Shown here: positions 6,376-17,026 of the stretch, in pieces
Layout: the number at the start of each line of letters is the position of its first letter
Numbering within the stretch: position 1 is the stretch's first letter
DNA from: Caulobacteraceae bacterium
GTDB lineage: Bacteria > Pseudomonadota > Alphaproteobacteria > Caulobacterales > Caulobacteraceae
NCBI GenBank assembly: GCA_003164925.1
Contig: PLRV01000032.1
Span: 1 to 40,175, forward strand
DNA: 40,175 nucleotides
Reading direction: 5' to 3'
Made by a program: the position numbers and the translations under genes
Notes under the pieces: generated by a model
The model's database searches: none
What the model saw: the letters and a program-made list of their open reading frames with translations, nothing else
Told to the model about the DNA's origin: nothing

Positions 6376-7929
6376 CTACTCCGCCGCGTTCATCTTATAC
6401 GCGCCGAAGTCCTCGGGGAAATGCTTCAGGGCGCTCAGCACGGGGAACGGGGTGAAACCGCCCAGGGCGCAGAGCGATCCAAGTCTCAGGGTGTGGCAGA
6501 GGTCTTCTACGAGGGCGATGTTGGCCTCGACGGCCTCTCCCGAAATGATCCTGTCCAATACTTCGGCGCCGCGGACTGATCCGATGCGGCAGGGGGTGCA
6601 CTTGCCGCAGCTCTCGATGGCGCAGAATTCCATGGCGAAGCGGGCTTGGCGGGCCAAGTCGACGGTGTCGTCGAACACCACCACGCCGCCGTGGCCGATC
6701 AGGCCGTCGCGGGCGGCGAACGCCTCATAGTCGAACGGCGTGTCGAACAGGGTTGGGGGGAAATAGGCGCCAAGCGGCCCACCCACCTGTACGGCCTTCA
6801 CCGGTCGTCCAGAGCGCGCGCCGCCTCCGATGTCTTCCACCAGTTCACCGAGCGTCACCCCGAACGCGGTCTCGAAAAGCCCGCCGTTGCGGATATTGCC
6901 GGCCAGCTGGATCGGCATGGTGCCGCGCGAGCGACCCATGCCGTAGTCACAATAGGCGTCCGCGCCCTCCGCCAGGATGAAGGGTATGGCGGCGAGCGAG
7001 AGCACGTTGTTGATCACCGTTGGCTGGCCGAACAGACCCTGGTGCGCCGGTAGCGGCGGCTTGGCGCGCACCTGGCCGCGCCGGCCTTCCAGGCTCTCCA
7101 GCAGAGCAGTCTCCTCGCCGCATACATAGGCCCCAGCGCCGACGCGCACCTCCACGTCAAAGGCGCGTTCTGATCCGCCAACCCTCCGACCGAGCAATCC
7201 TGCGGCCCGCGCGGTCGGAATGGCGCGTTCCAGTGCGGCGATGGCGTGCGGATATTCCGAGCGCACATAGATGAATCCCCGCGTCGCGCCTACGGCGAGG
7301 CCGGCGATCGCCATGCCCTCGATGAGCAAGAAGGGATCGCCTTCCATGATCATCCGGTCGGCGAAGGTCCCGCTGTCGCCCTCGTCGGCGTTGCAGACGA
7401 CGTACTTCTGCGGCGCGACGGCCTCGGCTACGGTGCGCAACTTGATCCCGGTCGGAAAGCCGGCTCCGCCGCGGCCGCGCAGGCCCGACGAGGTGACGGC
7501 CTCGACGATTGCGGACGGGCCGAGCGCGACGGCCCGTTCCAGCCCCGTTAGCCCGCCGTGGCGGCGATAATCCCCGATCGACAGAGGATCGGTGATCCCG
7601 CAGCGGGCGAAGGTCAGGCGCGTCTGACGGGCCAGAAAGGGCAGGTCTTCGGGCCGGCCGATCCGTTTCGGGTGAGTCCCGCCGTCGAGCAGCGCCGCAT
7701 CTAGCAGGGCTGGCGCCTCTCCGGGGTCGATGGGGCCGTAGCCAATCCGGCCGGCGGCGGTTTCGACCTCGACCAGGGTCTCCAGCTCGAAGACGCCGCG
7801 CGAGCCGTTGCGTACAATATCCAGCGCGACGTTCCGCACCGCGGCCGCCGCATCGAGCGCCGCCGCCACCTCGTCGGCGCCCACCGCGACCGCGGCCGCG
7901 TCGCCCGGCACGTAGAGGCGAAGGCTCAC
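6376..7929 (-). CDS. fdsB: NAD-dependent formate dehydrogenase beta subunit (NuoF-like)
   Basis: This 517-residue subunit carries FMN and the NAD+ site and is related to NuoF of complex I. A thioredoxin-like N-domain (about 1-95) is fused in front. The FMN/NAD part shows GRGGAGFPTG (152-161), CNADEGDSGTF (from 179) and GAGAYVCGEETALL. A [4Fe-4S] site is formed by C441, C444 and C447 in ESCGKCTPCR together with C487. It passes electrons from the alpha subunit to NAD+. The start is GTG, and the GTGA at 7926-7929 overlaps the fdsG stop. Confidence 0.95.
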   Translation of the reverse strand: MSLRLYVPGDAAAVAVGADEVAAALDAAAAVRNVALDIVRNGSRGVFELETLVEVETAAGRIGYGPIDPGEAPALLDAALLDGGTHPKRIGRPEDLPFLARQTRLTFARCGITDPLSIGDYRRHGGLTGLERAVALGPSAIVEAVTSSGLRGRGGAGFPTGIKLRTVAEAVAPQKYVVCNADEGDSGTFADRMIMEGDPFLLIEGMAIAGLAVGATRGFIYVRSEYPHAIAALERAIPTARAAGLLGRRVGGSERAFDVEVRVGAGAYVCGEETALLESLEGRRGQVRAKPPLPAHQGLFGQPTVINNVLSLAAIPFILAEGADAYCDYGMGRSRGTMPIQLAGNIRNGGLFETAFGVTLGELVEDIGGGARSGRPVKAVQVGGPLGAYFPPTLFDTPFDYEAFAARDGLIGHGGVVVFDDTVDLARQARFAMEFCAIESCGKCTPCRIGSVRGAEVLDRIISGEAVEANIALVEDLCHTLRLGSLCALGGFTPFPVLSALKHFPEDFGAYKMNAAE

Positions 7930-8375
7930 CGGGCTTTCTCCGCCAGCAGCCGGTCAAGCCGTGCCGGATCGAGGCGCGCCACCGGCCGCCCGTCCAACAG
8001 CGCGGCGGGTCCGCTGGCGCAGAGGCCGAGACAATAGACGGCCTCCAGGGCGACCGTATCGCAGCCGGCCAGACGGGTTTGCGCCCAGGCGGCCAGCGCC
8101 TCGCCGCCGCGCGCCTGGCAGGCCTCGGCGCGGCACAGCTTGAGCATGTGCGGGAGCGGCGGCTCGCGATGGAAGTCGTGATAGAAGGTCAGCACCCCGT
8201 GCACCTCGGCGCGCGTGATGTTGAGCGTGCTGGCTACGATGGGAACGGCTTCGTCCGGCACGTGGCCGAACGCCCTGCTTAGAGCGTGAAGAACGGGCAA
8301 CAAGGCGCCGTCCCGGTGGGCCTCGGCCTCGATGATCGCCGCGGCTCTCGTGGCGTCCCAGGCGCTGAATGTCAC
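7926..8375 (-). CDS. fdsG: NAD-dependent formate dehydrogenase gamma subunit (NuoE-like)
   Basis: The 149-residue subunit is a NuoE-type [2Fe-2S] protein. The ligands are visible as C81-x4-C86 (CRAEAC) and C115-x3-C119 (CLGLC). The helical front part contains the family block LNITRAEVHGVLTFYHDF. The GTG at 8375 is chosen because GGAG (8381-8384 on the complement) lies five bases upstream. The frame extends to another GTG at 8405, but that sits only a few bases from the edge of an insertion-sequence remnant, so the extra ten residues are probably not native. This is the first gene of the operon. Its promoter must lie inside or beyond the remnant. Confidence 0.9.
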   Translation of the reverse strand: MTFSAWDATRAAAIIEAEAHRDGALLPVLHALSRAFGHVPDEAVPIVASTLNITRAEVHGVLTFYHDFHREPPLPHMLKLCRAEACQARGGEALAAWAQTRLAGCDTVALEAVYCLGLCASGPAALLDGRPVARLDPARLDRLLAEKAR

Positions 8376-8408
8376 GATCGCTCCGATCTTTGCGACGAAA
8401 GACACGTG

Positions 8409-8567
8409 GATCTTCCCCCGAAAAAGTGGACGGGGTTAGGCCGCTCTAAGCTCGGCTTCGGCTGAGCTGGTGTAGCCCAGGGCCGAGTGCAGGCGGGAGG
8501 GATTGTAGAAGCCCTCAATGTAACTGAACAGACCTCGCCGCGCGTGGCCGTGAACCCGACCTTGATC
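8409..8567 (-). mobile_element. IS3-family remnant: transposase C-terminus and one IS end
   Basis: Reading the minus strand, the stretch ending at the TAA in 8436-8438 encodes YIEGFYNPSRLHSALGY and then a short tail. This is the typical C-terminus of IS3-family orfB transposases (rve integrase end). After the stop, the sequence TCCACTTTTTCGGGGGAAG matches the look of an IS3-family terminal inverted repeat, placing the element end near 8409-8412, about 35 bases before the preferred fdsG start. The DDE catalytic core, orfA and the other end are absent, so the copy is dead. The left side of the fragment fades out by about 8567, beside the next gene's stop codon. The family is clear; the exact group is not. 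Confidence 0.8.
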
Positions 8568-8587
8568 GACTGTCACCAGGCCCGCAT

Positions 8588-9484
8588 TCAGCGCTTGGCC
8601 GGGGTGGGCTTGCTGCAGACCACACGATCTGGCGCATCGCCAGAGGCGAGCTTCTGCGCGCAGATGGGCCGCAATTGCTCGTTTTCGAAGACCATGTTGC
8701 GCTCCTCGTTGGGTGCGTTCTGTTCACAGTCGTACTCGAGCTGAACAACGCCCGACGCCCAGGCCCAGCGGCGCTTCACCCTGAACGGCCGGGTGAAATA
8801 AGTCGGATCGTAGAGGGTCACGTCCCAATCGAGTTCGGTCCCGTCGGCGCTCTTGCTGATGCGCTCGACCATGTGCAGCTTGTTCGAACTCGGGACGCCC
8901 TTCTCGTCGAGCCAACCCAGCCCGTTGAAGCCGACCGTGTCGACGACCAGGGTGTCGCCTTCCCAGTGGCCGACCGAATTGCCCATGTAGGTCGGGGCCA
9001 GCTTGGCAGGGTGGCTTTTGCCGAGGAGGACCTGGCGAACGTTCCGGTCCTCTTCGGAGATGAACGCGATCTGTCGCTTTGTCTGCATGACGACGACCCC
9101 CAGGTGGGGGTTCAAGGTGGCGTCGACCCCCGTCGGGCGGCAGGTCATGTGCGGGGAAGCAATGGGCGTGGCCTTCTCGAACATCTGCAGCCGGTGATCG
9201 TAGATCGCCTGGCCTTGCGGCGTGAGCGGAGGATTGTCGCCGATCGAATAGTTGGCGGCGGGCGCCGACGGCTTGTCGATCCAAACGCCGCTGAAATCGC
9301 GAGGGTCCGTGTTCGCCGCCTCCGCAGGACCGCCGCCGACGGTCTGCGGGGCGCCAGGCGGATTGAAGGGATGCTCGGGCGGATTGAGGAGAACAGGCGT
9401 TTGCGCGTTCTGAGCCTGTGCGACGCTGGCGAACATCATGGCCGCGACGCCCAATAGCACTCGCTTGTGGATCAATCGGATCAT
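8588..9484 (-). CDS. Exported protein of an unnamed family, paralogue A
   Basis: I recognise no named domain in this 298-residue protein. A signal peptide is clear: MIRLIHKR, a hydrophobic stretch, then a likely cut after AQA near residue 24, so the ATG at 9484 is preferred over the TTG at 9511. The mature part has a proline-rich linker, DFSGVW, CRPTGV, then VGHWEGDTLVVDT and a block rich in charged and aromatic residues, LYDPTYFTRPFRVKRRW. Several of these blocks recur in the neighbouring gene (9542-10249), so the two are diverged duplicates. I have seen such proteins described only as hypothetical in Sphingomonas-like and Acidobacterial genomes. The gene is the last of the receptor cluster and ends beside an IS remnant. 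Confidence 0.75.
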   Translation of the reverse strand: MIRLIHKRVLLGVAAMMFASVAQAQNAQTPVLLNPPEHPFNPPGAPQTVGGGPAEAANTDPRDFSGVWIDKPSAPAANYSIGDNPPLTPQGQAIYDHRLQMFEKATPIASPHMTCRPTGVDATLNPHLGVVVMQTKRQIAFISEEDRNVRQVLLGKSHPAKLAPTYMGNSVGHWEGDTLVVDTVGFNGLGWLDEKGVPSSNKLHMVERISKSADGTELDWDVTLYDPTYFTRPFRVKRRWAWASGVVQLEYDCEQNAPNEERNMVFENEQLRPICAQKLASGDAPDRVVCSKPTPAKR

Positions 9485-9541
9485 GGAACGCTGGCTCGCC
9501 TTCTTATACAAATAGGTGTGATGCGCTCTTGTTCAGCGGGC

Positions 9542-10249
9542 TCATCGGATCGCCGGTTCGCCCTTTTTAATGCGGTCGAGGCAAACGTCCTCCTTGATGA
9601 CCGCGCCCTCAGGTTTCCGGCGATAGGTCACCGCGGTCCGCCAGGGGCGGCTGAAGGTTTTCGCGTCGTCGATCGTGATGCGGTCTTCCAAGCGATCGGG
9701 GCCGAGCAACCGCAGCCGCTCGGTCAGCTTCATCTCATCGCTGTGCGGCAGGCCGGCCGAATCCAGCAGGGTGCTGTCACGCAGTCCCGTGGTTTCGATT
9801 ATGAGAGTTGCGCCCTCCCAATGGCCCACGGCTATCCCGATCGAGATGGGGTAAGGAACGTCGAGCTGCTTGGCTGCCATGTCGACCGTGCGCGCCCAGT
9901 GGTTCCATTGGTAGAGGAATGCGACGCGCCGGGGCTGCACCAACAGCTCGAACGGATAAGGGGCGAACATCAGCCGGGGCACGCCGGCTCCCGCGCACCA
10001 TGACACGGAATCGTAGCTCGTATCGCCAGCACGCCGGGCGGCGAGATGGCTTTCGTAAACCTTCCGCGCCTCTGGGAGCAGCGGCGGATCGTGGCTATCC
10101 ACGGCCTTCACGGCCGTCACCGGATGCTCGATCATCCAGACGCCGGAGAAGGCGTCGTGTCCGTCAGCTGTGGCGGCGTGTGCATGAGCGGCCAGCGCCA
10201 TAGCGAATACAGCCGCGAGACCCGCAATGTTGAGAGCAGACGCCGGCAT
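9542..10249 (-). CDS. Exported protein of an unnamed family, paralogue B
   Basis: The 235-residue product starts at the ATG at 10249, where AGGGA lies just upstream and a signal peptide begins (MPASALNIAGLAAVFAMALA, cut near AHA). The longer frame back to 10396 would bury the signal peptide. The mature protein shares a series of blocks with the next gene: AFSGVW against DFSGVW, AVGHWEGATLIIETTG against SVGHWEGDTLVVDTVG, and a downstream LDSAGLPHSDEMKLTERLR matching LDEKGVPSSNKLHMVERIS. It is shorter by about 60 residues. No catalytic motif is recognised; a beta-rich periplasmic or surface protein is a guess. It lies in the same direction as the receptor gene. Confidence 0.75.
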   Translation of the reverse strand: MPASALNIAGLAAVFAMALAAHAHAATADGHDAFSGVWMIEHPVTAVKAVDSHDPPLLPEARKVYESHLAARRAGDTSYDSVSWCAGAGVPRLMFAPYPFELLVQPRRVAFLYQWNHWARTVDMAAKQLDVPYPISIGIAVGHWEGATLIIETTGLRDSTLLDSAGLPHSDEMKLTERLRLLGPDRLEDRITIDDAKTFSRPWRTAVTYRRKPEGAVIKEDVCLDRIKKGEPAIR

Positions 10250-10426
10250 GGCTTCCCTACCGATCTTCCTTGCGCCCGAAGGCGGTTTCATATGTTGCAG
10301 CCCGAAGGCCGCGCCGGGCCGAGGGCGGCCATGATGGCGCGCGATCATGGCCGTCGACGAGGGATGCGCATAAACAGCACCCGCGGAAAATGCCACCGGC
10401 GATCCAGAGGCGTCGCGCCGCCCTGT

Positions 10427-10948
10427 TCACATCTTTCCCCAACCTTCGCCGGCCTTGTCCTGCTCGTCGAACATGCCTTCGCCGGCGGGCTTCGTCTTCA
10501 ACCACTCGGTGATGTCCCAGTGTTCGACGATCTTGCCATTCTGCAGGCGGAACAGGTCGCCGACGGCGATTCCGGGGCTGCCGGGCTTAGGGACGACCTG
10601 AGACAGCATGACGACGTAGTCGCCTTCCGCCAGCACCAGCTTCACGTCGAGCGTGGGCGGGTGTCCCTTGAACTCTTCCCTGTAGCCGTCCAGCGCTTTC
10701 TTCAGCCCCTCCAGACCATCTTCGATCATCGGACTGTGCTGGATGTAAAAGTCGCCCATGAATGGGCGCGCGGCTTCGAAGTCGAATTGGCTGACGCCCT
10801 TGTAGAAGCCCAGCACCGCTTGCTTGTTCGCCTCCAATTGGGCGGCGGAGACCGGTGCGGCGGCCGGTTGCGCCGCCGCTGGCGGCGGCAGAGCCACCAG
10901 GCAACTCAAGGCCAGCAACGGCGCGAGGATCCAGGAGAGTTTAGGCAT
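10427..10948 (-). CDS. Exported SnoaL/NTF2-like protein 1
   Basis: The 173-residue product has a signal peptide (MPKLSWILAPLLALSCLVAL, cut after AAA). A SnoaL/NTF2-like alpha+beta cone fold follows: NKQAVLGFYKGVSQFDFEAA, then FYIQHSP, a GLEGLKKAL helix, and GIAVGDLFRLQNGKIVEHWD, which is the family's signature last strands. The ATG at 10948 is chosen because GGAG lies eight bases upstream; the open frame extends to a GTG at 11017 that overlaps the previous gene. Members of the fold are isomerases, dehydratases or binding proteins. The histidines in IQHSP and EHWD are where ligand residues often lie, but no reaction can be assigned. Confidence 0.82.
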   Translation of the reverse strand: MPKLSWILAPLLALSCLVALPPPAAAQPAAAPVSAAQLEANKQAVLGFYKGVSQFDFEAARPFMGDFYIQHSPMIEDGLEGLKKALDGYREEFKGHPPTLDVKLVLAEGDYVVMLSQVVPKPGSPGIAVGDLFRLQNGKIVEHWDITEWLKTKPAGEGMFDEQDKAGEGWGKM

Positions 10949-10962
10949 GGCCATCGCTCCGT

Positions 10963-11430
10963 TCAAAACATGCCATTGAAGTTGCGGATGCCCGGCACGT
11001 CCTGCTTGGCGGTCCACTGCTCGGCGATCTTGCCGTCCTCGAAGCGGAAATAGACCATCATCGCCGCGCCAAATTGGCCGGGGGCGGGGAAGTCGTGCAC
11101 GTGCAAGAACACCAGGTCGCCTTCGGCGAAGGCGCGCATGATGGCGCTATAGTGCCGCGGCTGACGGGTCTTCAGGTCGCCGTAGTAGGCCTTCCACTCC
11201 GCAAGGCCGCTGGGCGAAGAGCCGCTATGCTCGTGGTAGCTCGAGCTCAGGTACTGGCTTGCCGCGTCCCACCCCTGGGTGTTGAGCGCGTTCCAGAACG
11301 CGATCGCCACCGCCTTGTTGTGCTCCGACACGCTGTCGCTGAGGGCGGCGGGCTGGTCCGCCGGGGCGGCGTGCGCCCCGGCCGAGCAACCCAATAGACA
11401 GGCTAGGCTTACAGCCGTCAGTGTTTTCAT
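10963..11430 (-). CDS. Exported SnoaL/NTF2-like protein 2
   Basis: The 155-residue product has a lipoprotein-like or Sec signal (MKTLTAVSLACLLGCSAGAHA; LLGC fits a lipobox, an AHA cut is the alternative). The body is SnoaL-like: NKAVAIAFWNALNTQGWDAA, YHEHSG, a GLAEWKAYYGDL helix, FLHVHDFPA and a final YFRFEDGKIAEQWT. It is a relative of the next gene, with the same block order but clearly diverged. The ATG at 11430 is preferred over the GTG at 11436 because AAGG lies eight bases before it. The gene sits between the receptor and the second SnoaL gene with gaps of about 14 bases, so all are likely one transcript. The substrate is unknown. Confidence 0.82.
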   Translation of the reverse strand: MKTLTAVSLACLLGCSAGAHAAPADQPAALSDSVSEHNKAVAIAFWNALNTQGWDAASQYLSSSYHEHSGSSPSGLAEWKAYYGDLKTRQPRHYSAIMRAFAEGDLVFLHVHDFPAPGQFGAAMMVYFRFEDGKIAEQWTAKQDVPGIRNFNGMF

Positions 11431-11443
11431 GCCCACAACCTTA

Positions 11444-13657
11444 TCAGAAGTGCGCCGAAAGGATCACGCCAACGGTCCGCGGATCGTACAGGGTCGCCGA
11501 AACGTTCACCGGTTGCACCGTCTGGACCAGCACGTCGGTCTTGTAGCGGTTGTCAGTGAAGTTCCGGACATAAGCGGTGACCGAGTAGTGCTTGTCGGGC
11601 AGGGTGAGGGTCGCGCTCAAATCGCCAATCAACTGGTCTCCCACATCCGCATAGGGCGTGGCGCCGGTATTGAACAAGGACGGGGTCAGGAACTGCGAGC
11701 TCACACTGTGAGCCGACAAGTACCGTCCGTCGCCGTGGACCGACAAGTCGACGCCGTCGGCGAGGTGGAAAAAGTGGGTGTAGGCCGCGTTGACCGTGTG
11801 CGGCACGACGTTATTGGGCTGCGTCGCGACCGCAAATTGGGTGAATTCCGCAGGCTCGTTGATGAAGTGGGCGTTCACATAGGAATAGTCGAGTTCGAAC
11901 TGATCATCGGCGGTCGGCCGGTAGGTGGTTTCAAGCTCTCCGCCATACATTCGCATCGGTACATTCAAGGTTGCGAATTCCTCAGCAAAATTATTGCCTG
12001 AAATATTCACCCCATTAGTCTGGTAGCCGGAATAAATATAGTAGAAGACATCGCCATTGAGCTGCAGCGTATTGTCGAAGAATCGGTTCTTCGAGCCGAG
12101 CTCGAACGACGTCACCGTTTCGGACTTAAAGGGCATGTCCGTAGGGACATTGCCGGCGCCGGTCGAGACCTGCACGTCACCCGGCAGGAAGCCACTGGAG
12201 ATCATGCCATAGGCCATGTTGACCGGCGTCAGATCATGCTCGAGACGCGCCTTGTAGGTGACATTGTTGAAAGCGCGGATCGCGGCGCCGCCGTTCAGGT
12301 TGTAGGTATCCAGGATCGATGGGCTGGCCGGGAGTGGGAAGCCGTTGACGTTGCTGCTGTAGACTTCGTCGTTCTGAATATGGGTGTAGTCGTAGCGCAG
12401 GCCTCCGGTGAAGCGCCAGCGCTCGGCGAACGGATAGGTGGCTTCGGCGAACACACCGGCGTTTTCAGTGGTGCGTTGGCTCGACGATTCGAACGCCAAT
12501 GCGCCGGTCTGATTGAAGGTAAGCGAAGTGTTCGCGGTGAGCGGGTTGTTGTAGTAGAAGGCGCCGGCCTGCCACGTTAGCTTCGAACCCGCCTCGGACG
12601 ACAGGCGCAGTTCCTGGGTCAGGAACTGGTCTTTCGGAGTAAGGTCCGGCTGGCTCAGGCCGCCGGGAAGCGGACCGGCCGTGATGAGCACGGTGTTCTG
12701 CTCGAAGGTGCGGAAAGCCGGCAGATAGGTCACGTTGAACGGGCCGGCGTTCCAGTTCACTTCAGCCCAATATTGGCGCTCCTTGGTGTTGCCCGTGCCG
12801 ATCAGCGCCGAGGTCGGCGCGACGGTGTTGGGCGCGGTCAGTTGGTCGATAACACCCCCGGTGTGGAAGGTGCCGTCGTCGAACTGGGCGCCGAGCAGCA
12901 CCGACAAATCGGCGCTGGGCCTATACAGCAGCTTGATGCGGGCGGCGGTGTCGTTCAGCGCGCCGCCGTCGGGCGAGTTATAGCCATCGCGTGAATAACG
13001 GTTGGCGGCGATGCGGATCGCGAAAGTGTCGCCGACCGGCACATTCACGGCGCCGCTGTAGTGCTGCAGGTCATAACTGCCAAGCTCGGCCGAGGCGTCG
13101 GCGCCATAGTGATCGAGTTGGGGATTGTTGGTGTGGAACGCCACCACGCCCGCGGTGGCGCTGCGCCCATAAAGTGTGCCTTGCGGCCCGCGCAGAACTT
13201 CGACGCGGCCGATATCATAGTCGCTGCCCATGCCTTCATAGATGTCATCGGTGTAGACAGCCACGGCAGGGACCGAGGAGACGATGCCGCCGCGCGCCAG
13301 TCCGCTCGATGAAAGGCCGCGAATGGTGAGCGAGCCGCCGACGTTGTCACTCCGGCCGCCCACCGTATCCGTTGTGGGGCCCGCGACCACGCCGGGCACG
13401 TCTTGCAGGATGTCCTGTAGCGAGTAGCGGCCCTGCGCCTTCAGATCTTCGCCCTTGCGAACGCTGACCGACACCGCCGTCTTTTGCACGTTGGAGATGC
13501 GGTGTTCGGCGGTGACGACAACTTCCTGAAGGGTGGATACGCCCGCCGCGGCCGGCGCGGGCGCGGTCTGGGCATGCGCCAGGCCCGCGTCGAGACTGCC
13601 GAACACGGAGCATAGAATCAGAGCCGAAACGTGCGCGGAATCTTTAGGAGCCTTCAT
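11444..13657 (-). CDS. TonB-dependent outer-membrane receptor
   Basis: This 737-residue protein has a signal peptide (cut near AHA, residue 29) and a TonB box-like TLQEVVVTA (about 42-50). The plug domain shows QDILQDVPGV, SLTIRGLSS and VEVLRGPQGTLYGRSATAG. A long beta-barrel follows, and the protein ends in a terminal phenylalanine. The start is set at 13657, where GGGGAGG lies five bases upstream; the open frame to 13777 lacks a signal sequence. The receptor imports a ligand across the outer membrane using TonB-ExbB-ExbD. Its type (plug with LRGPQGTLYG, no siderophore enzymes nearby) resembles the large sphingomonad/caulobacter group that takes up carbon compounds. It heads the cluster running to 8588. 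Confidence 0.93.
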   Translation of the reverse strand: MKAPKDSAHVSALILCSVFGSLDAGLAHAQTAPAPAAAGVSTLQEVVVTAEHRISNVQKTAVSVSVRKGEDLKAQGRYSLQDILQDVPGVVAGPTTDTVGGRSDNVGGSLTIRGLSSSGLARGGIVSSVPAVAVYTDDIYEGMGSDYDIGRVEVLRGPQGTLYGRSATAGVVAFHTNNPQLDHYGADASAELGSYDLQHYSGAVNVPVGDTFAIRIAANRYSRDGYNSPDGGALNDTAARIKLLYRPSADLSVLLGAQFDDGTFHTGGVIDQLTAPNTVAPTSALIGTGNTKERQYWAEVNWNAGPFNVTYLPAFRTFEQNTVLITAGPLPGGLSQPDLTPKDQFLTQELRLSSEAGSKLTWQAGAFYYNNPLTANTSLTFNQTGALAFESSSQRTTENAGVFAEATYPFAERWRFTGGLRYDYTHIQNDEVYSSNVNGFPLPASPSILDTYNLNGGAAIRAFNNVTYKARLEHDLTPVNMAYGMISSGFLPGDVQVSTGAGNVPTDMPFKSETVTSFELGSKNRFFDNTLQLNGDVFYYIYSGYQTNGVNISGNNFAEEFATLNVPMRMYGGELETTYRPTADDQFELDYSYVNAHFINEPAEFTQFAVATQPNNVVPHTVNAAYTHFFHLADGVDLSVHGDGRYLSAHSVSSQFLTPSLFNTGATPYADVGDQLIGDLSATLTLPDKHYSVTAYVRNFTDNRYKTDVLVQTVQPVNVSATLYDPRTVGVILSAHF

Positions 13658-13909
13658 GGCTGCCTCCCCAAAAAGTTTTTTTCTGTGGCGATTCCTAGCA
13701 CAAATCAGCCTGCGCAAGCCATGCTCAAAAAGGCTCACCTTGGAAAAAAGCGCATTTTTTTGTTTAATGCCGGTCACTATTCAACGTAGTGCGGGCTATG
13801 TCGGCGGCATGGAACGCGGCCCAGAAAATGTTTTTTTTGCTGAAAGCGGCAACCTTGCGGACGTGCTAAACGAGCGCTGTCGGCTGTCCAGCTCAGGGGG
13901 CGTGGAGTT
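13658..13909 (-). promoter_or_regulatory. Divergent intergenic region between receptor and GntR regulator
   Basis: This 252-base gap separates the divergent receptor and regulator genes and must carry both promoters. It is far more AT-rich than its surroundings, with A/T runs near 13671-13681, 13743-13761 and 13829-13838. A weak minus-strand promoter candidate reads GGCTTG, 17 bases, TAGGAA (around 13694-13722). The A-run and T-run around GCGC near 13743-13761 form an imperfect inverted repeat. No exact FadR-type TGGT-N3-ACCA operator was found. Confidence 0.4.
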
Positions 13910-14662
13910 ATGGCAGATCGGATTGATTCCGGATTTGGACCGTCCCGGTCGGTGGTGCGAGGGCATAGTGGACGGGAGATGCTCGCGATCACGCCCGATC
14001 CCGCTTCCACGCAGGCGGACCAGGCCTCCAACCATATTCGCCGCGAAATCTTGAGCTGCCGGCTTGCGCCGGGCACGAAGATCCGCATCAACGAGGTCGC
14101 GGCCCGGCTGGATGTCAGTGTCGGCGCTGTGCGCGAGGCTCTGTCTCGACTCGCGGCGGAAGGGCTCACCGTGCCGCAGGCGCAGCGCGGTTACTCAGTG
14201 GCGGCGGTTTCCGCCGACGAGCTAAGGGATCTGACGGAGACGCGGATCACGATCGAAAAACTATGCCTGCAGGAGGCCCTCGCGCACGGAGGGCTGGAAT
14301 GGGAAAATGCGTTGATCGCGGCGGCGCAGCGCCTGCGCCAACTGCATGAGCGTGATCCGGAGGATTTCTTGTCGATCAGCGATCAATGGACGGTCGCGCA
14401 TGCCTGTTTCCATGAAGCGATCGTAGCGGGCGCCCGCAGCAAGTGGCTGCTGCGCGTCCGCCATATATTGTACGCCCAGGGCGAACGATATCGCCACCTT
14501 TCGGTGCCAATGAGGAATCAGGAACGGGATGTTCATGCCGAGCATGACGCAATGCTCGAGGCGGCGATAAATCGGGACACGAACCGGTTATGTTCGCTGA
14601 TGGATGCCCACCTCTGGCAAACGACCGACACATTACTCCAGTCGCCAATTCTATTGGGCTAG
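13910..14662 (+). CDS. GntR family regulator, FadR/FCD type
   Basis: The 250-residue product has a winged-helix GntR domain at about 37-100: HIRREILSCRLAPGTKIRINEVAARL, then VSVGAVREALSRLAAEGL, the recognition helix and wing. An all-helical FCD effector domain follows (about 110-235), with the metal/ligand region marked by ETRITIEKLC, DQWTVAHACFHEAIV and ERDVHAEHDAML. Such regulators sense small organic acids or related metabolites. It is divergent from the receptor cluster, so control of that cluster is likely. The ATG at 13910 has GGAG only two bases away; an ATG at 13979 directly follows GGGAG, so either may be used. Confidence 0.9.
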   Translation: MADRIDSGFGPSRSVVRGHSGREMLAITPDPASTQADQASNHIRREILSCRLAPGTKIRINEVAARLDVSVGAVREALSRLAAEGLTVPQAQRGYSVAAVSADELRDLTETRITIEKLCLQEALAHGGLEWENALIAAAQRLRQLHERDPEDFLSISDQWTVAHACFHEAIVAGARSKWLLRVRHILYAQGERYRHLSVPMRNQERDVHAEHDAMLEAAINRDTNRLCSLMDAHLWQTTDTLLQSPILLG

Positions 14663-14760
14663 GTGTGCAGTCCCATAAGCGCGGCGCCGATTCCCCGAAA
14701 AATCCGGCCTTAGCGACCCAGCGGCCTGCTTGCCCAGAGATTTCGGGCAGCCCAAAAGCG

Positions 14761-14790
14761 GACAGGGCGACCCTTCCGGATCGCCCTGTC
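14761..14790. terminator. Perfect 10-bp hairpin between GntR gene and tRNA-Thr
   Basis: GACAGGGCGA pairs perfectly with TCGCCCTGTC around a ten-base loop. It lies 98 bases after the GntR stop and 37 bases downstream of tRNA-Thr on the other strand. A T-run (CTTTT) follows on the minus strand only, so it fits best as the tRNA terminator and perhaps as a two-way barrier. Confidence 0.6.
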
Positions 14791-14802
14791 TCATTATAGT
14801 AT

Positions 14803-14827
14803 TTTAGCTGGTGCATAGTTCTTTAGC

Positions 14828-14833
<6 letters not shown>
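14803..14833. repeat. 12-bp direct repeat of the tRNA-Thr 3' end
   Basis: TTTAGCTGGTGC occurs at 14803-14814 and again at 14822-14833. On the tRNA strand it reads GCACCAGCTAAA, that is the last six bases of tRNA-Thr plus six downstream bases. Copies start 19 bases apart. This looks like a duplicated attachment core, but chance or local slippage is possible. Confidence 0.5.
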
Positions 14834-14902
<69 letters not shown>

Positions 14903-14912
14903 GAAGGCCGGC

Positions 14913-14941
14913 GTTCTAGCGAAACAGTACGGCCGCGTCGA
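14913..14941 (-). promoter_or_regulatory. Likely promoter of tRNA-Thr
   Basis: On the minus strand TCGACG (14936-14941) and TAGAAC (14913-14918) are separated by exactly 17 bases and sit 10 bases before the tRNA. The same -10 sequence, TAGAAC, occurs before tRNA-His at 24105. Confidence 0.55.
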
Positions 14942-15011
14942 GCGCTCAATTTCGCAAGGATCATCGCCGGCGCTCTTGACTCTCGTGTGCGCGCGCGAAA
15001 GGGGAGAGTCC

Positions 15012-15170
15012 ATGACCTGCGAAGACAAGAGCGACGGCGCGCGAACCCGTGAGCCAGCCCGCCCGCCTGATGGGCGCGAGGCGCGCCTGGCCAGGGCGCT
15101 CAGAGAAAACCTGCGCCGACGCAAGACCAACGAAGGGGCCTTACCGCCCAATCCCGATACGTCAAGCTAG
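15012..15170 (+). CDS. Small basic conserved protein
   Basis: This 52-residue protein starts at an ATG five bases after GGGGAG (15001-15006). Its central part, RLARALRENLRRRKTNE, is an amphipathic basic helix that I recognise from tiny unnamed proteins next to core genes in many alphaproteobacteria. There is no signal peptide or membrane segment. The function is unknown, and RNA or membrane binding is only a guess from the charge. It precedes murA by about 100 bases on the same strand. The open frame reaches back to 14976, but that start has no ribosome site. Confidence 0.6.
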   Translation: MTCEDKSDGARTREPARPPDGREARLARALRENLRRRKTNEGALPPNPDTSS

Positions 15171-15274
15171 CGGACTTTGCGCGCGGCTCTTGCGTCCTGT
15201 AGAACCCCGCATCCATCTATGCCTCGTCCATCCGCCGCCCTGGCGGCGTGCGGCATTGGGAGTTCAGGGGCGCC

Positions 15275-16564
15275 ATGGATCGCATAGCCATCGTCGGCGG
15301 ACAGCGACTGGAAGGGGAAATCCCTATCAGCGGCGCCAAGAATTCCGCGATCAAGCTGATGGCGGCCAGCCTTTTGACTGACCAGCCCCTGCGGCTGACC
15401 AACATGCCGCGCCTGGCCGACACGCGGTTTCTGGGCCGGCTCCTCCGGCGCCTTGGCGCCGAGGTGCAGGAGATCGACGACGGCCCCGATGGCCCGGAGA
15501 CGATTTTGCACGCGCCCGAGATCGTCAGCGCCATCGCACCCTACGATCTGGTGCGGCAGATGCGGGCGTCGTTTAACGTGTTGGGCCCTCTGGTGGCGCG
15601 CACGGGCCATGCCAAGGTATCGCTGCCGGGCGGCTGCACCATCGGCGCGCGGCCCGTCGACCTGCATCTAAAGGCGCTCGAGGCGTTGGGCGCGTCCATC
15701 GACCTGCATGACGGCTACGTCTTCGCCCAGGCGCCGCGCGGGTTGAGGGGCGCCAGGATCGAGTTTCCCTTCGTCTCGGTGGGCGCCACAGAGCATACCT
15801 TGCTGGCGGCCGTGCTGGCGGAGGGCGAGACGGTAATCGTCAACGCGGCCTGCGAGCCGGAAATCGGCGATCTGATCGACTGCCTGACCCGGATGGGCGC
15901 CAAGATCGAGGGCAAGGACACCTCGACCCTGAGCATCAAGGGCGTGTCGCGCCTGAACGGAACGACCCATGCGGTGATTCCCGACCGGATCGAGACGGGC
16001 ACCTACGCCCTGGCGGTGGCGATGGCCGGAGGCGAGGTGCGCCTGACCCGCACCCGCAGCGATTTCATCGAGGCCCTGTTGGTCAAGATGGAGGCCGCCG
16101 GCGTGGAGATCACCCGCGCCAACGACGGCCTGACGGTCAAGCGCAACGGCGCCCGCCTGAAGTCCGTGGACGTGGAGACCGAAGCCTATCCCGGCTTCGC
16201 CACCGACCTGCAGGCGCAGTTCATGGCCTTGATGACCATGGCCGACGGAGTCAGCGTGATCCGCGAGACCATCTTCGAGAACCGTTTCATGCACGCGCCT
16301 GAGCTGGCTCGGCTGGGCGCCGACATCACGGTGCGTGGCGGCGAAGCCGAGGTGAGGGGAACGCCGCAGCTTCACGGCGCCCAGGTGATGGCGACCGACC
16401 TGCGCGCCTCGGTCAGCCTGGTGGTCGCGGCCCTGGCTGCGCGCGGCGAGACGGTCGTCAACCGAGTCTATCATCTGGACCGCGGATTCGAGCGGCTGGA
16501 AGAAAAGCTGGGAGCCTGCGGCGCCGACATTCGGCGACTGAGCCACGACACAGGGGAGGAGTGA
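15275..16564 (+). CDS. murA: UDP-N-acetylglucosamine 1-carboxyvinyltransferase
   Basis: MurA moves enolpyruvate from PEP to UDP-GlcNAc, the first committed step of peptidoglycan synthesis. The 429-residue length is normal. [17 protein letters not shown] at the start carries the conserved lysine and asparagine, and the fosfomycin-target cysteine is C121 in [24 protein letters not shown] and [16 protein letters not shown] are further family blocks. A cysteine at this site predicts a fosfomycin-sensitive enzyme. The ATG at 15275 matches the family N-terminus; the frame extends nine codons further to a GTG at 15248. It is followed after three bases by the DUF2948 gene. Confidence 0.97.
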
Positions 16565-16567
16565 TTC

Positions 16568-17026
16568 ATGTCTGCATCCGTCCCCGCCCAAGCTTTACGC
16601 CTGCTCGCTGACGACGCCGAGGATCTGAAGATCCTTTCGGCGGCCTTGCAGGACGCGGTCTGCACGATCGGCGACATTTCCTATGAGCCCTCCGCGCGGC
16701 GCCTGACGGTATCGGTGAACCGTTTCCGCTGGGAGACGGCGCGGACAGCCAAGGGCGGCGAGCGCGTTCGCGCGGCCGTGCAGCTGGGAGGCGTGCTGTC
16801 GGTCAAGGCTCACCGCCTGCGCCGGGAGGCCGAGCAAGCGGTGCTGTCCCTCCTATCCATCGATTTTACGCCGGGAGATACGCCCGCTGGGGCCGTCACC
16901 TTGAATTTCGCCGGCGGCGGCGCCCTCAAGGTCCAGGTGGAGTGCTTGGATGCGGTCCTGGCCGATCTGTCCAAGCCGTGGTCCGCCCGCCGCCGGCCTT
17001 CGCACGACTCATCCGAGAGCCCCTAA
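16568..17026 (+). CDS. DUF2948 family protein
   Basis: The 152-residue product matches DUF2948: it begins LRLLADDAEDLKILSAALQD, continues with a VNRFRWE block, a VLSVKAHRLRRE strand, and ends with VTLNFAGGGALKVQVECLDA. No catalytic motif is seen and the function is unknown. It lies between murA and hisD, with gaps of three and two bases. This order is kept in many alphaproteobacteria, which supports a real gene and a shared transcript. Confidence 0.92.
   Translation: MSASVPAQALRLLADDAEDLKILSAALQDAVCTIGDISYEPSARRLTVSVNRFRWETARTAKGGERVRAAVQLGGVLSVKAHRLRREAEQAVLSLLSIDFTPGDTPAGAVTLNFAGGGALKVQVECLDAVLADLSKPWSARRRPSHDSSESP

Follow-up and report, generated by a model that had tools for sequence, protein, structure and literature searches.

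The 40,175-nucleotide stretch analysed here (the window; contig PLRV01000032.1 of a Caulobacteraceae bacterium) contains a TonB-dependent receptor (TBDR) locus, at positions 8588–14662, in which two adjacent genes, here called A and B, encode apparently exported proteins with VGHWEG-type blocks. A and B belong to a real protein family that lacks a curated model and has a predicted fatty-acid-binding-protein (FABP)-like fold. They form a co-inherited pair that evolves as a unit, with a clear pairing rule in this genus, and the pair occurs in many differing settings, the receptor locus of the window among them. On the basis of paralogy, mirrored distances and AlphaFold models, the core unit consists of two co-inherited proteins of predicted calycin fold that are apparently exported.

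The A/B family

Neither A nor B has a Pfam or NCBIfam match at E ≤ 0.1, or a sequence match in the PDB. The two share 26% identity and fall into one family, in agreement with the first-pass annotation of this DNA, which had described them as related proteins of no recognized family. Searches of the own genome (3.44 Mb in 100 contigs, the window being contig C93) gave 57 protein matches with A and 60 with B, mostly at the same places, and the window together with 20 fetched regions yielded 57 family open reading frames (ORFs). In a bootstrapped tree, window A falls within a clade of 23 (support 97/89), window B within one of 21 (98/98); 13 of the 57 ORFs fall outside both, and one clade of six does not occur in A/B pairs. 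Window A is closest to the A of another locus and window B to the B of that same locus. Because each groups with its own type, A and B are old paralogues, and a recent duplication within the locus was rejected. The annotation had regarded both small-protein families of the locus as duplicated; for A and B the kinship is borne out and the local duplication is not.

All 57 family ORFs share G75, C124, L188 and C262 without exception (numbered as in window A), and D235 is kept in 56 of the 57 rows of the own-genome alignment. Many residues fixed by subfamily separate A from B: D129, R141, W164 and N165 are each present in 21/21 B sequences, and K220 and W251 each in 21/23 A sequences. Export of A and B is favoured by signal-like N-termini, read by eye, together with the Cys pair (C124/C262 in A), which is conserved in all 57 members. 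No membrane anchor or signalling domain was read in either protein. Across 82 family members, four Pfam families were matched by any member at E ≤ 0.01, none of them a lipocalin or FABP model; DUF3471 was matched in three.

Pairing and co-inheritance

A same-strand family neighbour lies within 250 bp of 47 of the 57 own-genome ORFs, and there are 24 adjacent pairs. Twenty A+B pairs were analysed, with the omission of a non-adjacent A and B (L066), the third member of a triple (L083) and an A accompanied only by a B fragment (L084). The distances among the A proteins mirror those among the B proteins (r = 0.944, 0 of 20 000 permutations as high), also after thinning of close pairs (r = 0.82 over 12 pairs, 0 of 20 000). 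Eight of the 20 pairs have an exact 4-nt overlap.

The congeneric genome G003 contains 33 family ORFs of at least 180 residues in 20 regions, which had been picked around family hits. In all ten adjacent pairs there, one member is of the A side and the other of the B side, and the subgroups are mirrored (quick tree; support of the deepest split 28), and the distances correlate again (r = 0.715 over ten pairs, 1 of 20 000 permutations). Members from the own genome and from G003 mostly form separate groups, so the pairs have seemingly multiplied separately in the two genomes. Elsewhere, in 80 named loci (the best 80 of at least 580), an adjacent family member accompanies 64 of the 146 family ORFs; these 64 lie in 26 loci. 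Other pairings occur in own locus L072 and in an Acidobacteriota/Gammaproteobacteria group of two clades. Family pairs of a third type, set apart from the others, occur twice in the L072 region (7108–16596), beside TonB receptors of another subfamily.

The mirrored distances speak for shared inheritance of A and B and not for contact between them; a physical interaction is part of the function proposed below. The annotation had proposed paired roles for the duplicated proteins. The behaviour of A and B as an evolutionary unit agrees with this; the VGHWEG pair is not peculiar to the locus, given the 57 family ORFs of the genome.

Predicted fold

AlphaFold models of both proteins are FABP-like β-clams, with a predicted local distance difference test (pLDDT) score of 81 and a predicted TM-score (pTM) of 0.77 for A, and corresponding values of 92.4 and 0.88 for B. 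The best structural matches of both models are β-clams of the FABP/retinol-binder kind, and most of the listed matches are binding proteins; NanoLuc/nanoKAZ is among the matches of both A and B. Lipocalins are absent from the listed VIA matches, an absence that excludes nothing.

Neighbouring genes and the DUF6152 partner

Neighbour counts were compared with random placement; the binomial values treat genes as independent, unlike the situation in catabolic islands, and the gene caller used for neighbours was crude and missed the GntR gene of the window. Within 3 kb of the family in the own genome lie 10 of 30 TBDR plug matches (1.8 expected) and 14 of 28 SnoaL_2 matches (1.7 expected). DUF6152 is a stronger partner there than either: 19 of 23 DUF6152 genes lie within 3 kb (1.4 expected), and the count stays at 19 when the distance is cut to 1 kb. 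The window locus itself contains no DUF6152 gene. In the named loci a DUF6152 domain lies within 1.5 kb of the family, or is fused to it, in 43 of 80.

Three histidines, namely a His-His directly after the signal-like stretch and the His of an NPH block, are found in 80 of 84 DUF6152 ORFs from the own genome and the named loci (for example L111:7313–7717 and L096:2022–2438); three ORFs lack all three and one starts late. That the histidines are kept or lost together is as expected for one metal site. Sixteen fusion proteins of DUF6152 and the family, with DUF6152 always N-terminal, occur in Acidobacteriota and Gammaproteobacteria loci (L109:680–1822, L096:815–1987, L106:929–2170 and 13 others), and 13 of the 16 retain the histidines. 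From this pattern DUF6152 is probably an N-terminal-histidine metal protein. Such sites (braces) are the subject of PMC10952591, as far as the available part of that paper goes, and the string '6152' is absent from the main text, as available, of a 2025 search for N-terminal-histidine proteins (PMC12537917). Homology between DUF6152 and the family was considered and not found (hhalign probability 7%).

Among 105 neighbour proteins of the named loci (from 125 selected of 257 found, at most 41 loci) no Pfam family occurred in more than three. Some of the fetched own-genome regions contain FAD monooxygenases, BphC-type dioxygenases, FAA hydrolase or aldehyde dehydrogenases, some kilobases from the pair and counted with no control. 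The pair closest to that of the window (L081:10274–16361) is accompanied by an FAD_binding_4 protein, a cytochrome c, two SnoaL proteins and a cytochrome b561.

Layout and borders of the window locus

The features are as follows; likely starts were chosen by eye, each ahead of the signal-like stretch of its protein.

8406–8585, minus strand: possible C-terminal remnant of an IS3-type transposase plus a terminal stretch, between A and fdsG (rve_3 E = 0.087, under the cut-off)
8588–9511, minus strand: A, VGHWEG family, A subfamily; likely start 9484
9542–10396, minus strand: B, VGHWEG family, B subfamily; likely start 10249
10427–11017, minus strand: SnoaL-2, SnoaL/NTF2-like (Pfam), signal-like start; likely start 10954
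10963–11436, minus strand: SnoaL-1, SnoaL/NTF2-like (Pfam), signal-like start
11444–13777, minus strand: TBDR (Pfam plug and barrel); likely start 13657
13658–13909, minus strand: divergent intergenic region, presumed control region
13910–14662, plus strand: GntR/FCD regulator (Pfam GntR and FCD domains)

ORFs and Pfam matches agree with the gene set and placement given by the annotation (a TBDR, two SnoaL-like and two VGHWEG proteins with a divergent GntR/FCD gene). The receptor is a TBDR by its plug (PF07715, 1.7e-14) and barrel (PF00593, 4.1e-29) and reaches no curated NCBIfam cut-off. Both SnoaL proteins score above both cut-offs for the SnoaL_2/SnoaL profile and so belong to the SnoaL/NTF2 group. 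The best NCBIfam model of the regulator is CsiR, at 137 bits against an equivalog cut-off of 218, and it is not assigned to CsiR. Signal-like N-termini were read by eye in the TBDR and both SnoaL proteins as in A and B. The TBDR and SnoaL-1 are separated by 7 bases, SnoaL-1 and the likely SnoaL-2 start by 8, SnoaL-2 and B by 30 (177 with the likelier B start), and B and A by 30 (57 with the likelier A start). These genes plausibly form an operon in the order TBDR–SnoaL–B–A.

SnoaL-1 and SnoaL-2 share 29% identity. SnoaL-2 scores higher with a SnoaL protein at C7:28946 (54.6 bits) than with SnoaL-1 (44.3 bits). For SnoaL-1, no fetched locus gave a better match than SnoaL-2 (45.7 bits). The local duplication proposed by the annotation is accordingly doubtful for these two on identity and bit scores: a recent event appears unlikely, and an old one would still fit.

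Downstream of A, on the same strand, lie formate dehydrogenase genes (fds, fdhD). A 49-residue open frame in the intervening gap has an end resembling that of an IS3-type transposase, and a repeat-like terminal stretch follows; the evidence is weak. This insertion sequence (IS)-like remnant separates the formate dehydrogenase genes from the locus, of which they are therefore perhaps not a part. A second IS copy was looked for and not found. The 182-base gap matches the own assembly at one further place, over 24 bases that adjoin the stop of A and lie outside the repeat-like end, and of 168 loci only those overlapping the same place show the repeat-like pattern. On the other side of the locus is a tRNA-Thr gene (14828–14902). 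A 19-base tandem direct repeat, 89% alike, lies at its 3′ side (14796–14833) and may be an insertion trace. Outside the locus, an ORF on the plus strand at 941–2227 carries a Lipocalin_5 domain (residues 297–403) and overlaps another candidate ORF.

Distribution

The family was detected at 1e-6 in 18 of 61 genomes (the own genome and 60 relatives; at most 44 candidates scored per genome), in large numbers in a few genera, and in none of 24 genomes from other families of the order. At 1e-10 it was found in five of 200 Pseudomonadota genomes, the own genome included (at most 13 candidates scored per genome). Acidobacteriota and Gammaproteobacteria metagenome-assembled genomes (MAGs) supply most of the best 80 named loci, and Caulobacteraceae, Micropepsaceae, Novosphingobium and two Acidimicrobiia MAGs also contribute; the phyla represented are thus Pseudomonadota, Acidobacteriota and Actinomycetota.

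Plasmid records of Novosphingobium, Sphingobium and Croceibacterium also carry the family, some with TBDR, DUF6152 or DUF6644 genes, and no known pathway emerged from the plasmid neighbourhoods (five stretches, three with gene tables). In the three plasmid records with gene tables that cover family members, these are labelled hypothetical. In the Novosphingobium and Croceibacterium plasmids L169 (NZ_CP103870.1) and L171 (NZ_CP011453.2) the family adjoins DUF6152, near DUF6644 in L169 and beside a TonB receptor in L171. A literature search gave no paper for DUF6152, DUF6644, PF19649 or VGHWEG within the collection covered, and no earlier description appeared among the papers listed.

Proposed function and alternatives

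Of the functions considered, the one we hold most probable, and hold tentatively, is receptor-fed capture of a hydrophobic ligand by an interacting β-clam pair. The TonB receptor would let a hydrophobic, probably aromatic compound pass the outer membrane; in the periplasm the A/B pair would bind it and hand it over to the SnoaL-like proteins, which would convert it; and the divergent GntR/FCD protein may keep the operon repressed until a carboxylate product appears. This reading draws directly on gene content and order, the unity and co-inheritance of the A/B family, the fold predicted for it and the presence of TBDR and SnoaL genes near it in the own genome more often than by chance.

A number of results weigh against it. 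Within 1 kb of the family only three of 30 TBDR plug matches remain (1.0 expected, p = 0.08), so the association of the receptor with the family holds at 3 kb and not at this distance. Both TBDR and SnoaL genes occur within 3 kb of five of the 27 family clusters of the own genome. Of the 80 named loci, three gave a match to the TBDR profile and two to that of SnoaL, many of these loci being short contigs and the TBDR profile missing other receptor subfamilies such as those of L072; in the 20 G003 regions TBDR was found in four, SnoaL in one and DUF6152 in one. Co-inheritance of the receptor with the pair was not supported either: VG-linked receptors show no significant clustering in the receptor tree, which requires eight label changes, against a mean of 8.3 on shuffling (263 of 500 shuffles as low). 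One starred clade of 14 holds seven of ten VG-linked receptors and only five of 18 free ones. TBDR and SnoaL are therefore enriched and exchangeable neighbours of the pair, not conserved partners, and a conserved five-gene system is not upheld. Unrelated neighbours in most genomes, which the annotation had named as evidence against a system, are what was found for the receptor and SnoaL, and not for the A/B pair. The pair itself is not universal either, 82 of the 146 family ORFs in the named loci being solo, and mirrored A/B trees need no physical contact, because inheritance as one block explains them. The Foldseek TM-score is modest (0.41, query-normalized), with a root-mean-square deviation of about 6 for B. 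The barrel is accordingly an enlarged one, and the likeness concerns fold and not function. No aromatic ring-cleavage gene lies beside the window locus, a finding that has no control for the frequency of such genes near other loci. A scan for sigma-70-like consensus sites gave none for the operon on the minus strand, and no close orthologue of window A was found in the 60 relatives, the best matches at E ≤ 1e-40 being 36–38% identical (three genomes).

The same pair might instead be an enzyme that oxidizes, isomerizes or cyclizes the ligand, with SnoaL performing the next step. Calycin barrels can catalyse, as the NanoLuc/nanoKAZ matches recall; polar residues are conserved specifically in A and in B; the sister pair in L081 adjoins a flavocytochrome-like pair; and the candidate metal protein DUF6152 is fused to family members. 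However, beyond structural Gly, Trp, Pro and Cys residues and one Asp (D235) the 57 own members have no catalytic motif in common, and binding proteins predominate among the listed structural matches, which leaves enzyme function on balance rather unlikely, although it comes close behind the capture reading. We consider it improbable that the pair sequesters or reports a toxic hydrophobic compound, with the receptor an incidental neighbour. The looseness of the TBDR association would fit such a role, and the bacterial calycin heterodimer VtrA/VtrC binds bile salts, according to the available part of PMC4933562; the absence of an anchor or signalling domain from A and B as read, and the catabolic genes in some family regions, argue against it.

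A purely accidental grouping of receptor, SnoaL proteins and VG pair in a region of fast turnover is less probable again. The five-gene set was not found as such in the loci examined, and the locus lies between an IS-like stretch and tRNA-Thr, but the company within 3 kb exceeds random expectation and the five genes share one strand, separated by 7 to about 180 bases according to the starts chosen. The least probable alternative is a formate link, in which an exported SnoaL/NTF2 enzyme would free formaldehyde from an aromatic dimer and the downstream formate dehydrogenase would dispose of the C1 unit. Its appeal is the adjacency of fds and fdhD on the same strand, and there is a precedent in LdpA and PcfL, NTF2-family deformylases of lignin-dimer catabolism (PMC12997858, in its available part, which also describes PinVW as of the cresol dehydrogenase family). 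The possible, weak IS3 remnant fills the gap, however, and a lignostilbene dioxygenase is absent among the six genes. In phmmer searches against the PDB (E ≤ 0.01) the SnoaL proteins matched 3g0k (both) and, weakly, 6lch (SnoaL-1 only) and no lyase, the presence of an LdpA structure in that PDB copy being unchecked. The pairing of an LdpA-type lyase with formate dehydrogenase was set aside on these grounds.

Beyond receptor-fed capture, a broader picture can be drawn that we regard as unlikely: a bacterial repertoire resembling that of odorant-binding proteins, in which heteromeric exported FABP-fold pairs would have multiplied independently within every species to tens of copies. Each pair would fit another aromatic or terpenoid ligand and be coupled to receptors and enzymes that can be exchanged. 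Elsewhere the pair and DUF6152, as an N-terminal tri-histidine metal protein, would form a new system of metal-dependent periplasmic oxidation, and the window branch would have swapped DUF6152 for SnoaL.

The recurrence of pairs more than 20 times in one genome suggests a little-studied way to catch and process oily or aromatic molecules, in a large, apparently exported family that so far has no Pfam or NCBIfam model. Concrete handles on its function are the fold predicted for it, the rule by which A pairs with B, and its DUF6152 partner. Ligand capture, if true, could explain how some poorly cultured soil and water bacteria gain access to hydrophobic aromatics.

Comparison with known systems

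TonB-dependent uptake loci with periplasmic partners are a general kind of system, and the window locus resembles them in its receptor, exported helpers and local regulator; it differs in that the helpers belong to an unnamed calycin-like family and are not ABC-type binding proteins or SusD. The gene set of L081 resembles a cresol-dehydrogenase-type flavocytochrome locus. The window SnoaL proteins share with LdpA and PcfL, as described in the available part of PMC12997858, the NTF2/SnoaL fold family and a suspected aromatic setting; they differ in their signal-like start and in having no lyase among their PDB sequence matches. VtrA/VtrC, from the available part of PMC4933562, offers the idea of two periplasmic gene products and a calycin barrel for a hydrophobic ligand. 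There the membrane regulator VtrA supplies a strand that completes the VtrC barrel, whereas A and B are each modelled as a whole barrel with no other domain found, unlike a two-chain barrel with a DNA-binding domain. The closest likeness in fold is to the intracellular lipid-binding proteins (iLBPs; FABP and cellular retinol-binding protein), whose β-clam with a helix–turn–helix between strands A and B is reproduced in both models. A and B do not belong to the iLBPs by sequence, matching no lipocalin or FABP profile. Whereas iLBPs are cytosolic and have no signal peptide, A and B are bacterial, apparently exported (by eye) and larger, carry one Cys pair and are encoded as an A+B gene pair.

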